Shown here: in pieces, positions 20,023 through 27,326 of the stretch | Position numbering within the stretch: the first letter of the stretch is position 1 | How the letters are laid out: each line of letters starts with the position of its first letter | Source: Vicinamibacteria bacterium | GTDB taxonomy: Bacteria; Acidobacteriota; Vicinamibacteria; Fen-336 | Assembly: GCA_035570235.1 (NCBI GenBank) | Contig: DATMML010000015.1 | Span: 124,001-188,000 of the forward strand | Length of the DNA stretch: 64,000 nt | Direction of reading: 5' to 3' | Translations under genes and position numbers: made by a program | The notes under the pieces: model-generated | Told to the model about the DNA's origin: nothing | The model's database searches: none | Seen by the model: the letters and a program-made list of their open reading frames with translations, nothing else

Positions 20023-20065
20023 ACGAAGATTATCGTTGACACGACGAAGACCTTCGTAGTAGCGT
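20023..20065 (+). promoter_or_regulatory. blaI promoter with two tandem BlaI-type operators
   Basis: Two 14-mers, ACGAAGATTATCGT (20023-20036) and ACGAAGACCTTCGT (20044-20057), match at 11 of 14 positions and both have dyad symmetry. The second extends to a 20 bp dyad (20041-20060) with one mismatched pair. Their centres are 21 bp apart, two helical turns. Between them lies -35 TTGACA (20036-20041); a -10 TAGCGT (20060-20065, 18 nt spacer) follows. The start point would fall at about the ATG (20072), so the message may be leaderless. BlaI dimers here would block RNA polymerase. Confidence 0.72.
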
Positions 20066-20071
20066 CTGCCC

Positions 20072-20455
20072 ATGGTCTCACCTCCGCGCCCAACGCCGGC
20101 CGAGTTGGAAATCCTGCGTTTGCTCTGGGAACACGGGCCCAGCACGGTGCGCGAGGTCCAGGAACGCATGGAGCAGCACCGCCCCACGGGCTATACCACG
20201 GCGCTCAAGCTGCTCCAGATCATGACAGAGAAGAACTTGGTCCGACGGGACGAAACCGCGCGCGCCCACGTTTACACGCCGCGGGCTCCCGAAGACCAAA
20301 CGCAGCGGCAGCTCGTGCACGACCTGCTTGACCGGGCGTTCGGCGGCTCGGCGACCAAGCTGGTCATGCACGCGCTCTCGGCGCGACAAACGTCGCGCGA
20401 GGAACTGGCGCGTATCCGGGAGATGCTCGATCGGCTCGAGGGAGGTGGAGAATGA
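20072..20455 (+). CDS. blaI: BlaI/MecI/CopY-family transcriptional repressor
   Basis: 127 residues. The winged helix (residues 6-75) begins P-T-P-A-E-L-E-I-L-R-L-L-W and has the recognition segment T-G-Y-T-T-A-L-K-L-L-Q-I-M, as in BlaI and MecI. The C-terminal helices (about residues 80-125) form the dimer and contain the region cut on induction in the classic system. The stop overlaps the start of the M56 peptidase (ATGA). The two operators just upstream suggest autoregulation of the whole three-gene unit. No beta-lactamase gene is nearby, so the regulon is something else. Confidence 0.93.
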   Translation: MVSPPRPTPAELEILRLLWEHGPSTVREVQERMEQHRPTGYTTALKLLQIMTEKNLVRRDETARAHVYTPRAPEDQTQRQLVHDLLDRAFGGSATKLVMHALSARQTSREELARIREMLDRLEGGGE

Positions 20456-22443
20456 TCCGGGCCCTTGGCTGGAGCCTTCTACATTTCGTCTGGCAGGGAG
20501 CCGCGGCCGCGGCCTTGCTGGGGAGCCTGAACCTCCTCTGGCGACGCTCGGCGCCCCAAGTCCGGTATCTGCTCGCTACCGCGACACTCCTTCTCATGCT
20601 GCTCCTCCCGGCCCTGACGTTCTGGCTCATGCGCGCCTCCACGGACCCCGTTGGGCCCATGGCGGACGCGGGGAACCCGGTGGGGAAGTGGTCGCCCTGG
20701 GCGTTCTCGACCCTGGGATCGACAAACGCGCCGCGCTCAGCGACCGCGGGACTGAACCGGCGGATCGAACCGCTGCTCCCCACCTGCGTGGTCCTCTGGG
20801 GGGTGGGCGTTCTCGCCCTTTCCTTACGAACGGTCGGTGGTTGGGCATTGGTGCAGCGCCTCCGGCGCTCCCGGCTCACGAGGCCGACACCGGTGAGCGA
20901 GGGGACGCTGGAGCGGCTACTTGGGGCCCTGCGGGTCTCGGCCCCCGTGCGCCTGTACGAGTCCGCCCTTGTCCAGGTGCCCACGGTCATCGGGTGGCTG
21001 CGGCCAATCATTCTCCTGCCCGCCTCCGCCGTGATCGGACTGTCGCCGACCCAACTCGAGCTGATCCTCGCCCACGAGCTCGCCCACATCCGCCGCCGTG
21101 ACTACTTGGTCAACTTGCTCCAGGCCGCGGTGGAGACCCTTCTCTTCTACCATCCGGCCGTCTGGTGGGTTTCCCACCGCATGCGAATCGAACGCGAGCA
21201 CTGCTGCGACGACCTCGCGGTGGCGGCGGGCGGGGACGCGGCCCGCTACGCGCGGGCTCTGGCCGACCTGGAGGGGCTCTGCTCCGCGCCCGCGTTGGCG
21301 ATGGCCGCCACGGGCGGTTCGCTCTGGGACCGGATCGCGCGGCTGGTGGGCCCGCCGCAACATCTGTCGCGAGCGTCGCGCGGCCTCGCCACGGTGCTGA
21401 CTCTGACCGTGCTCGGCCTCGCCCTCGGGGTCGGGTCGTCGCTCCTGTGTGGTCCCTCGACCCTTAAGGCGACGTTCGCCGCGTCGACCCTATCCGACGA
21501 TCATCCCTCCCAGCCGGCCACGTCGGAGGATCCCTCTGCTCCGGCGACCGCGGCCGCGCTCGAGGAGCCTCCGCAGGGGGCGCCCGCACCGGAGCCGAAG
21601 CCGAAACCACGCCCCGCACCGGTGCCCCGCGCCGCCCCGCGCGCCTTCCCGCTGGAACGCGTCCTCGAGCTGGCCCGCGCCGGCGTCACCCCCGAATACA
21701 TTGACGCCATGGACGCCCTCGGCTACCCGTCGCTCACCGCCGATCAGCTCATCGCCCTGCGGTCACAGGGGGTCGGTCCCGAATACATCCGCGACCTCGC
21801 CGGCGAGGGATACAAGAGCCTTTCGCCGGATCAACTCATCTCGCTCCGCGCGCAGGGAGTCTCCGCTCGCTACGTGCGCGGGCTCAAGGAGCAGGGAATC
21901 ACCGGCCTCTCAATTTCTAACCTTCTCGAGCTGCGCGCCCAGGGCGTCTCGCCGGAGTACGTGGCGGAGATGAAGGGGGCTGGGTACGAGGAGCTGTCGG
22001 TGTCCAGACTCATCGCCCTGCGCAGCCAGGGAGTAAGCGGCCGGCTTGCCGCCGAGCTGAAGGCGCTCGGCTATGACAAGCTGCCCCTGTCCAAGCTGAT
22101 CGCGCTGCGGAGCCAGGGGGTGAGCCCCACCTATATTCGCGAGATGGCTGGCCTGGGCTACCCCGGGCTCGACTTGCCGGTGTTGCTGGGACTCCGCACT
22201 CAGGGGGTCACGCCCGAGTACGTGCGCGAGCTTAAGGAGGCGGGATACGAGGACCTCCCGGCCGGCATGCTCATTGAGCTCCGGTCGCATGGGGTCACGC
22301 CTGCGTTCATCCGTGAACTGAAGGAGGCCGGCTTCAACAAGCTACGGCCCGAGGAGCTGATCGAGCTCCGCAACAGCGGGTTACGCGGCGGGCTGCTCAA
22401 GCGGCTTAAGAGCCTGCAGCAACCGGGGGGGGTACAGCCATGA
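20452..22443 (+). CDS. BlaR1-like M56 metallopeptidase with a C-terminal array of 29-residue repeats
   Basis: 663 residues. Membrane helices lie at about residues 5-29, 38-60, 107-130 and 312-333. The cytoplasmic M56 peptidase domain has H-E-L-A-H at 208-212 and E-R-E-H-C-C-D-D downstream for zinc. In BlaR1 the last part is a penicillin-binding sensor; here it is replaced by a Pro/Ala linker and eight full plus one partial 29-residue repeats (residue 405 to the end), predicted to be periplasmic. The repeat consensus is L-I-A-L-R-x-Q-G-V-x-P-E-Y-I-R-x-L, then x2-G-Y-x2-L. It overlaps blaI upstream and the next repeat protein downstream by 4 nt each. I infer that repeat-mediated sensing triggers the protease to inactivate BlaI. 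Confidence 0.88.
   Translation: MIRALGWSLLHFVWQGAAAAALLGSLNLLWRRSAPQVRYLLATATLLLMLLLPALTFWLMRASTDPVGPMADAGNPVGKWSPWAFSTLGSTNAPRSATAGLNRRIEPLLPTCVVLWGVGVLALSLRTVGGWALVQRLRRSRLTRPTPVSEGTLERLLGALRVSAPVRLYESALVQVPTVIGWLRPIILLPASAVIGLSPTQLELILAHELAHIRRRDYLVNLLQAAVETLLFYHPAVWWVSHRMRIEREHCCDDLAVAAGGDAARYARALADLEGLCSAPALAMAATGGSLWDRIARLVGPPQHLSRASRGLATVLTLTVLGLALGVGSSLLCGPSTLKATFAASTLSDDHPSQPATSEDPSAPATAAALEEPPQGAPAPEPKPKPRPAPVPRAAPRAFPLERVLELARAGVTPEYIDAMDALGYPSLTADQLIALRSQGVGPEYIRDLAGEGYKSLSPDQLISLRAQGVSARYVRGLKEQGITGLSISNLLELRAQGVSPEYVAEMKGAGYEELSVSRLIALRSQGVSGRLAAELKALGYDKLPLSKLIALRSQGVSPTYIREMAGLGYPGLDLPVLLGLRTQGVTPEYVRELKEAGYEDLPAGMLIELRSHGVTPAFIRELKEAGFNKLRPEELIELRNSGLRGGLLKRLKSLQQPGGVQP
21664..22359 (+). 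repeat. Eight 87 bp (29-codon) protein-coding repeats in the M56 gene
   Basis: Eight in-register 29-codon units, with a ninth partial unit after 22360. The DNA copies are diverged, so this is an old array, not a recent slippage expansion. Each unit encodes two short helices (P-E-Y-I-R-E-L and D-Q-L-I-A-L-R-x-Q-G). Confidence 0.85.
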
Positions 22444-23438
22444 CGGAGCGGGGGAGTCGGAAGTGGGGTCTCGGCGCCTGCGCGCTGGTTGCCGTGCTCT
22501 TCGTGACCGGGGCCGCAGGCTCTCCGACGTCGGAGGGTATTAGAGGTGTGTGGACGGCGGAGCGCTCCACCTGGCCTGTCGACACGGGCGGGACGACCAC
22601 CCTCGTTCAACTCTCAATCCGGCGCGCCGGCGGAGGCCGGGGGAACTGGGATTCGTCGCATCCCGTTCCCCTGGCCGAACTCGAAGGGCTCACGACGGCC
22701 CTGATGGACGCGGCCTCGGCCGACGTCCGTTTCGCCTGGAAGCGCGACGCGGGCAGTCTCGGTTTCGAGGGCCGCTTCCAGACGGGGGAGGGGGCTGGGC
22801 ACTTTACCTTTACTCCCAGTGTAACCTTCATCGCCGATATGCGAAGCCGCGGCTATGGCGACATCGATGACGAGAAAGCCCTGACCCTCGCTATTCACGA
22901 TGTCAGCCGGGCTTTCCTGGAACAGCTGGCCGCTCTCGGTTACGAGCGCGTGCCGATGGACAAGCTGATGGCGTTGCGCATCCACGGCGCGAGCCCCGAG
23001 TTCATCCGCGGCCTGGCTGGTCTCGGGTACAAGCGCCTTCCCGTAGATCAGCTCGTGGCCCTCCGGATACACGGTGCCAACCTCGATTTCATCCGTGACA
23101 TCCGAGGCCTCGGGTTTACCGATCTGGCCCCCGATCAGCTCGTGGCCTTCCGGATCCATGGGGTGAGCCCCGACTACATCCGTACCTTCCGGGGCCTGGG
23201 CTACGACCGGCTCACCCCGGACCAGCTGGTTTCCATGCGGATCCACGGCGTCACGCCTGAGTTCGTGACGGAGCTGAAGGGCCTCGGCTACTCGGGCGTG
23301 GCCGTGGATGTCCTCGTCAGCCTGCGCATCCACGGAGTGACCACCGAATTCGTCCGCCGCGTGCAGGGCCGAGCGGGGAAGGCGGTCACCGTCGACCACC
23401 TCGTTTCGATGCGGATCCACGGCGAGGAACCGGAGTAG
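22440..23438 (+). CDS. Secreted protein with the same 29-residue repeats as the adjacent M56 peptidase
   Basis: 332 residues; the ATG overlaps the M56 gene stop (ATGA). A signal peptide covers residues 1 to about 27. A small beta-rich domain (about residues 33-125) ends in G-R-F-Q-T-G-E-G-A-G-H-F-T-F. From about residue 127 comes a half repeat, then six full 29-residue repeats and a short last piece. The consensus, L-V-A-L-R-I-H-G-V-x-P-E-F-I-R-x-L, then x-G-L-G-Y, matches the M56 array except that R-I-H-G replaces R-S-Q-G. A shared repeat and translational coupling suggest the two proteins meet in the periplasm. No enzymatic motif is seen and the function is unknown. Confidence 0.8.
   Translation: MTERGSRKWGLGACALVAVLFVTGAAGSPTSEGIRGVWTAERSTWPVDTGGTTTLVQLSIRRAGGGRGNWDSSHPVPLAELEGLTTALMDAASADVRFAWKRDAGSLGFEGRFQTGEGAGHFTFTPSVTFIADMRSRGYGDIDDEKALTLAIHDVSRAFLEQLAALGYERVPMDKLMALRIHGASPEFIRGLAGLGYKRLPVDQLVALRIHGANLDFIRDIRGLGFTDLAPDQLVAFRIHGVSPDYIRTFRGLGYDRLTPDQLVSMRIHGVTPEFVTELKGLGYSGVAVDVLVSLRIHGVTTEFVRRVQGRAGKAVTVDHLVSMRIHGEEPE
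22881..23402 (+). repeat. Six 87 bp (29-codon) repeats in the secreted-protein gene
   Basis: Six in-register units with R-I-H-G at the same place in most copies, followed by a partial unit to 23435. The period equals that of the upstream M56 gene, which points to common origin. Confidence 0.82.
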
Positions 23439-26559: not shown

Positions 26560-26799
26560 ATGAGCAAGCTGACCTTGAGCGTGGACGAAGAGGTCGTGGA
26601 GCGGGCTAAGCGGTACGCCGCCAAGCGAGGGACCTCTGTTTCGCGCTTGGTGGAGACTTATCTCGACGCGCTCGCCCGGCCACTGGCGGTGAGGGATCAA
26701 GACCTGCCGCCCATCACCCGACGGCTCCGAGGGATTCTCAAAGGCGCAAGGTACAGCCGCGAGGACTATATCGACCACCTCGAGCGGAAGTACCGTTGA
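26560..26799 (+). CDS. DUF6364-like ribbon-helix-helix antitoxin
   Basis: 79 residues. The N-terminal segment K-L-T-L-S-V-D-E-E-V-V-E-R-A-K-R-Y-A has the pattern of a ribbon-helix-helix DNA-binding domain, followed by S-V-S-R-L-V-E-T-Y-L. The C-terminal half (about residues 45-79) is the likely toxin-binding part. The stop overlaps the TTG start of the PIN gene (TTGA), the usual type II antitoxin-toxin coupling. It would bind the palindrome overlapping its own start and neutralise the nuclease. Confidence 0.85.
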   Translation: MSKLTLSVDEEVVERAKRYAAKRGTSVSRLVETYLDALARPLAVRDQDLPPITRRLRGILKGARYSREDYIDHLERKYR

Positions 26800-27326
26800 A
26801 ACGGCTGCTCTTCGATGTCAACGTTGTCCTCGATTTCTTCCTCGACCGACCGCCCTTTGCGGATGCCGCAGGTGCCCTTTGGGCTGCAGCGGAGAGGAAG
26901 GAGATCGAAATTCTAGTCCCCGCCCACGGGGTCACGACCATCTTCTACCTGGCCGCCCGCCAGCGGGGCGCCTCGTTTGCACGCCGCGTCGTGAGCGATC
27001 TGCTCGCCCTCCCGACCGTCGCCGCTGTCGATGGGGCAGTCCTTCGCCGCGCGCTGCTGCTCGGCCAGCCCGACTTCGAAGATGCGGTTTGCGCTGCCGC
27101 AGCCGAAGCTGCTCAATGCCACGTACTCGTGACCCGGGACCCGAAAGGCTACCCAAATTCTCCCGTGCTGGTCGCGGACCCGCCCACGGCGTTGTCTCTG
27201 CTCGATGGCCCGAGCCCCAGAGGGGTGGCTGAGCGACCTCCGGCGGCCTACACGAAGACTCTCCGTGGCCGCCCCCGCCCACGGGGGCGCAGACGTCGAC
27301 CCCATAGGCCTCGTCGGCCGAAATGA
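26796..27326 (+). CDS. PIN-domain toxin (VapC-like ribonuclease)
   Basis: 176 residues from a TTG that overlaps the antitoxin stop. PIN acidic residues are in place: Asp7 and Asp13 (F-D-V-N-V-V-L-D), the D-F-E-D group at 93-96 and Asp115 in T-R-D-P-K-G-Y. The domain ends near residue 137 (A-L-S-L-L-D-G). The last 38 or so residues are very rich in Arg and Pro. They look like translation running on into intergenic DNA after loss of the original stop, or a late start of degradation. The nuclease core is intact. Confidence 0.85.
   Translation: MKRLLFDVNVVLDFFLDRPPFADAAGALWAAAERKEIEILVPAHGVTTIFYLAARQRGASFARRVVSDLLALPTVAAVDGAVLRRALLLGQPDFEDAVCAAAAEAAQCHVLVTRDPKGYPNSPVLVADPPTALSLLDGPSPRGVAERPPAAYTKTLRGRPRPRGRRRRPHRPRRPK

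Follow-up and report, generated by a model that had tools for sequence, protein, structure and literature searches.

The described systems closest to the one reported here are BlaR1–BlaI and MecR1–MecI of Staphylococcus and Bacillus, which combine a BlaI-family repressor with a membrane M56 protease carrying an intact HEXXH...E site, place the C-terminal sensor outside the cytoplasm and autoregulate a promoter with two operators. BlaI–M56 pairs are common outside beta-lactam resistance, and what such pairs sense is mostly not known. The BlaI–BlaR pair of Mycobacterium tuberculosis is used outside the classical bla operon, and is not known to come with a repeat array or with a secreted partner built of repeats. 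Here we describe a three-gene operon in a 64,000-nucleotide stretch of DNA from a Vicinamibacteria bacterium of the Acidobacteriota (assembly GCA_035570235.1, contig DATMML010000015.1, forward-strand positions 124,001 to 188,000), hereafter the window. The operon encodes a BlaI/MecI-family winged-helix repressor (blaI, 20072..20455, 127 aa), an M56 receptor-protease with a C-terminal repeat array (20452..22443, 663 aa) and a secreted protein that carries repeats of the same length (22440..23438, 332 aa); these and all features below lie on the + strand. ATGA overlaps of 4 nt at 20452 and 22440 join the three genes, as the first-pass annotation of this sequence had stated along with their coordinates.

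The operon shares with BlaR1–BlaI and MecR1–MecI all of the properties listed above, the autoregulated promoter with its two operators being a prediction in this case. It differs in having an array of 29-residue helical repeats and no penicillin-binding domain, and in encoding a secreted protein, built from a beta domain that we call secN and the same type of repeat, with no adjoining beta-lactamase or penicillin-binding protein gene. Our search of the openly accessible literature found no description of a BlaI–M56–secN module. We propose, with a probability of about 0.42, that the operon encodes a one-repressor signalling system of the BlaR1 type whose extracytoplasmic sensor comes in two parts, and that the ligand-binding moiety would be the separate secreted protein.

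The receptor-protease and the repressor

The M56 protein matched Peptidase_M56 (PF05569) at residues 47-279 with 104.9 bits (cut-off 31), and the same family matched 34 of its 34 relatives. Predicted membrane helices and the protease core are followed by a last membrane helix at residues 308-329, a Pro/Ala-rich linker at residues 330-400 (21439..21651) and then the array. Much of the linker is predicted to be disordered, with a predicted local distance difference test score (pLDDT) below 50. The predicted model has the membrane-embedded four-helix protease fold of the BlaR1 class and matched the BlaR1 structures 8ext, 8exs, 8exq, 8exp and 8exr with E values of 1e-4 to 1e-3 (1e-4 for the cryo-EM structure 8ext). 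The zinc motif HELAH lies at residues 208-212 (21073..21087); both this motif and the BlaR1-like membrane part had been recognized at first pass. Roles of eight active-site residues of BlaR1 have been described (PMC9834060), and all eight (H201, E202, H205, D210, E242, D246, Y261 and R294 in BlaR1 numbering) were kept in 57 of 57 M56-repeat proteins. Judged by sequence, the M56 protease is catalytically intact and, by homology to BlaR1, its repeat array lies outside the cytoplasm.

The C-terminus of the M56 protein is occupied by the repeat array and gave no Pfam match to a penicillin-binding (class D-like) SXXK domain. Moreover, the NCBIfam model blaR1_generic matched the peptidase part only, with 80.9 bits versus a cut-off of 400 bits. 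By these tests the module is not a sensor of beta-lactams, since it lacks a penicillin-binding domain and falls short of the NCBIfam cut-off for BlaR1, though it would operate in the manner of BlaR1. A second M56-family match in the window's genome lies in a 330-aa open frame (G000:C35:18415-18696), with no repeat match there.

The repressor matched Penicillinase_R (PF03965) with 98.4 bits (cut-off 22.6) and the Protein Data Bank (PDB) structure 1sd4 with an E value of 5e-7. Its closest PDB match was 2g9w, deposited as a conserved hypothetical protein, which we take to be a mycobacterial BlaI. The Asn101-Phe102 cleavage site of S. aureus BlaI is not conserved. His-Ala aligned with it in the window BlaI, Ala standing in place of Phe102, and the P1' residue was Ala or Leu in 55 of 57 loci. 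The cleavage specificity may have shifted. Matching of BlaI with the autocleavage site of M56 was also tried, but the M56 loop failed to align and the comparison was not used.

Matching repeat arrays and a conserved histidine

Nine 29-residue units make up the M56 array (residues 401-661, 21652..22434), eight of them strong and the last degenerate, in keeping with the eight or nine copies counted at first pass. The array was modelled as 18 helices forming nine hairpins, with pLDDT mostly above 90. The secreted protein begins with a hydrophobic stretch without a lipobox, and an N-terminal hydrophobic stretch was found in 40 of 40 relatives. Its predicted model (mean pLDDT 91.4) consists of the six-stranded secN domain at residues 34-126 (22539..22817) and a helical-hairpin solenoid of 29-residue units with an R-x-H-G-V motif at residues 128-327 (22821..23420). 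Five or six units are strong and the ends are degenerate; seven hairpins were predicted, consistent with the six to seven copies reported earlier at the same period as in M56. Autocorrelation at a lag of 29 was 2.06 for the M56 protein and 2.56 for the secreted protein, whereas the best of 500 shuffles reached -0.19 and -0.25, respectively.

Neither secN nor the repeat had a trustworthy model in Pfam, NCBIfam, PHROGs or PADLOC, secN was without a match in any library searched, and the model of the secreted protein had no PDB match at E <=0.001. Low-scoring Pfam matches to single repeat units (LYTB, SAM_GIDA_C and others) were short and scattered and were judged spurious. The repeat resembles those of TALE and BurrH proteins in being a tandem two-helix unit with weak profile and fold similarity, but it has 29 rather than 33-35 residues, is exported, gave no significant fold match and has no DNA-binding context. 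Homology to TALE was rejected, as the profile E value of 6e-12 was inflated by the repeats and the fold search was unsupportive (E 0.66 for BurrH). Anti-phage models of PADLOC gave no match for the M56 or the secreted protein and only a weak helix-turn-helix match for BlaI, and the viral contigs searched held no relatives of the module.

A repeat-only profile had matches in 47 of 297 phylum genomes, and the convincing ones were almost only at operon, fused or secN loci already identified or, among those inspected more closely, in M56-repeat or secN proteins. The exceptions were one truncated repeat open reading frame and two marginal matches (E 1e-4 and 6e-4). In ten genomes from other groups, four of them myxobacterial (9.5-13.4 Mb), the repeat matches lay at operon or secN loci as judged by position and frame length. 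Across these 297 and ten genomes the repeat stays essentially within M56 and secN proteins; a broad spread among unrelated cytoplasmic proteins, which the first-pass annotation had named as fatal to its proposal, was not seen. One record titled Chloroflexi contains two adjoining repeat reading frames of 9 and 4 units without a recognized secN or M56 part.

Unit position 10, just past the first helix, is often histidine. This residue was present in 86% of secreted units in operons, 86% of units in solitary proteins and 94% of units in fused proteins, but in only 32% of M56 units. Within 34 operons, whose species are not independent, the mean fraction was 0.94 for secreted arrays versus 0.30 for M56 arrays; the secreted array had the larger fraction in 31 operons, the two arrays were equal in 3, and the M56 array was ahead in none. 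From this pattern we infer that the secreted or fused array is under selection for binding and that the M56 array is retained as a scaffold. Because the histidine is kept in secreted and fused arrays and mostly lost from M56, it is less likely that the M56 array is itself the sensor. The first-pass proposal, in which the array was the sensor and the secreted protein its partner, ligand or competitor, is supported for the position of the array and for the partnership, in part by fusions of M56 with secN and repeats, and is weakened for the M56 array as the sensing element. Units of secreted and M56 proteins were more similar within an operon (0.174) than between operons (0.138); unit register was uncontrolled and this comparison was not used.

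Distribution and promoter of the operon

The secreted-family profile had matches in 66 of 396 phylum genomes. Genes for BlaI, M56-repeat and secN-repeat proteins occurred in series at 20 phylum loci, 18 counted by script and two (L078 and L026) read by eye. The M56 core and the repeat array of L026 (1267-2304 and 333-1673) are in different frames, reflecting a frameshift or an assembly error. Named genomes contained the split operon at 33 loci (19 Acidobacteriota, 9 Myxococcota, 2 Alphaproteobacteria, and one each in Rhodothermia, Eisenbacteria and Latescibacterota), so the expectation that the secreted gene is conserved beside blaI–M56 in relatives was borne out. The other loci in named genomes comprised one fused form, 30 secN-repeat genes without an adjoining M56 gene and 15 loci cut by contig ends. 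Gemmatimonadota also have secN-repeat proteins. Fusions of M56, secN and repeats lie behind blaI at six loci, five in the phylum and one in a named genome, with at least two BlaI subtypes. Distances among secN proteins correlated with those among M56 proteins (Mantel 0.45, 0 of 300 permutations).

Two tandem secN-repeat genes were found in three operons (L062, L066 and L194); the two copies of L062 differ, one being made of RIHG and the other of DHG units. At four further loci (L022, L024, L061 and L069) a secN-repeat gene ends an operon of an extracytoplasmic function (ECF) sigma factor, a putative anti-sigma factor (zf-HC2-like or HEAT) and a DUF4097 or HEAT/TPR exported protein. The last gene is of the same family as in the window operon, but the signal would pass through a sigma/anti-sigma pair and not through BlaI–M56. 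Anti-sigma-like and DUF4097 genes also adjoin a secN-repeat gene in L075, where the contig ends before any sigma gene. The ECF sigma settings suggest an envelope-stress theme for secN-repeat proteins.

The first-pass annotation identified a real module, although it overlooked the secN domain and two promoter palindromes, and the start that it gave, 20023, belongs to a promoter and is not a coding start. The putative operator O1, ACGAAGATTATCGT (20023..20036), is an imperfect palindrome that runs, at the end of its 3' arm, into the -35 box TTGACA (20036..20041); most relatives have the perfect palindrome ACGAAnnnnTTCGT at the same place. The putative operator O2, ACGAAGACCTTCGT (20044..20057), is a perfect palindrome that fills the 18-nt spacer between the -35 box and the -10 box TAGCGT (20060..20065). 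TTGAC(A) followed after 16-19 nt by TAnnnT was present in 18 of 19 operator-bearing loci. The pattern CGAAnnnnTTCG occurred within 150 bp upstream of 42 of the 54 blaI genes that precede M56-repeat genes, compared with 0.085 expected from shuffles, the window being counted by its single exact copy. Two copies about 19-23 bp apart preceded 39 of the 54. Other blaI promoters have different palindromes, such as TGCTAnnnnTAGCA, or, in sphingomonads, TACAnnTGTA-like ones. The best reading is that BlaI feeds back on its own operon, the two promoter palindromes being its candidate binding sites.

O2 is the sole copy that precedes a gene start in the window's genome. The other ACGAAnnnnTTCGT sites there are inside genes or away from gene starts, near the control count, and the operator 16-mer with one mismatch allowed was found at the window promoter and at one other place, the control pattern likewise occurring twice. 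In other genomes, further copies of the palindrome lie ahead of genes for an outer-membrane beta-barrel protein (G276 and G311), DUF5916 proteins (G287 and G315), a thioredoxin-like protein (G362) and a secN-repeat protein encoded on its own (L083; G287 C1:39977-39991). In two related genomes the palindrome is found before an outer-membrane beta-barrel gene adjoining an M2 (ACE-like) peptidase gene and before a TPR protein gene (L140 to L143). A wider regulon in other genomes is only suggested, because those genomes may have other BlaI proteins. Farther downstream in the window, at 26560-27326, a small-protein gene and a PIN-like protein gene overlap by 4 nt and resemble, by eye, a toxin-antitoxin pair.

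Role of the secreted protein

For the ligand, the docking and the direction of the effect, we infer the following. The secreted protein would bind its ligand through the beta domain and the His-bearing solenoid and would dock on the M56 array, to which it would be covalently attached in the fused forms. The ligand-bound protein would activate M56 to cut BlaI, and the operon, including the secreted gene, would remain derepressed until the ligand had been bound up. An envelope component or envelope damage is our best guess for the ligand. Several findings weigh against this two-part sensor. In named genomes an M56 gene adjoins 33 secN-repeat genes but is missing beside 30, about half of the total, and therefore the secN family also has a life outside this receptor; the ECF sigma settings likewise warn that the secN-repeat protein has functions independent of M56. 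Four phylum M56-repeat genes lack an adjacent secN gene, co-divergence with M56 is looser for secN (0.43) than for BlaI (0.91), and relaxed constraint on the M56 array is another possible source of the His asymmetry.

It is also conceivable, though rather unlikely, that the secreted protein is the output of the system, such that sensing of a ligand by the M56 array leads to cleavage of BlaI and to induction of the secreted protein, whose matching array then binds and neutralizes that ligand. This would follow the logic of BlaR1 and BlaZ, in which the receptor sensor resembles the enzyme class that is induced. The operator precedes no other gene start in the window's genome, which leaves the secreted protein as the only exported output seen; its gene is last in the operon and is duplicated in the three operons with tandem copies, and the stand-alone secN gene of G287 carries the operator. 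However, the receptor and its output would be expected to recognize one and the same ligand, yet M56 arrays mostly lack the histidine kept in secreted arrays, and no separate gene for a secreted protein adjoins the fused forms. Those fused forms also bear on an improbable alternative, in which the secreted protein, like CpxP or RseB, acts as inhibitor or competitor and keeps the M56 array switched off until envelope stress titrates the protein away. A fused inhibitor would make a self-inhibited receptor, which is possible but not specially suggested, although the shared repeat and the predicted autoregulation fit negative feedback and secN-repeat genes also come last in ECF sigma/anti-sigma operons. 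Least probable, in our judgment, is a structural role in which the arrays anchor both proteins, for example to peptidoglycan or matrix, and the signal reaches M56 otherwise. Proteins with secN and repeats do occur alone in many genomes, but the almost exclusive association of the repeat with M56 and secN proteins, and again the fusions, point to the receptor.

Pairs of BlaI and M56 of this kind may, we suggest tentatively, belong to a transmembrane signalling family that is widespread and so far undescribed. The M56 receptor of such a family would have as its ligand-binding half a separate, diffusible secreted protein that docks by matching helical arrays, fused and split forms would be interchangeable, and the same envelope-sensing module would be shared with ECF sigma systems. 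The secN domain and the 29-residue repeat are new to the libraries searched. For one large BlaI–M56 subfamily the sensor module is now defined, the secreted partner is encoded in the same operon and the promoter and operator are mapped from sequence, and the cultured carriers of the subfamily, which include Myxococcus, Corallococcus and Pyxidicoccus species, make the signal and the direction of control accessible to simple gene deletions.

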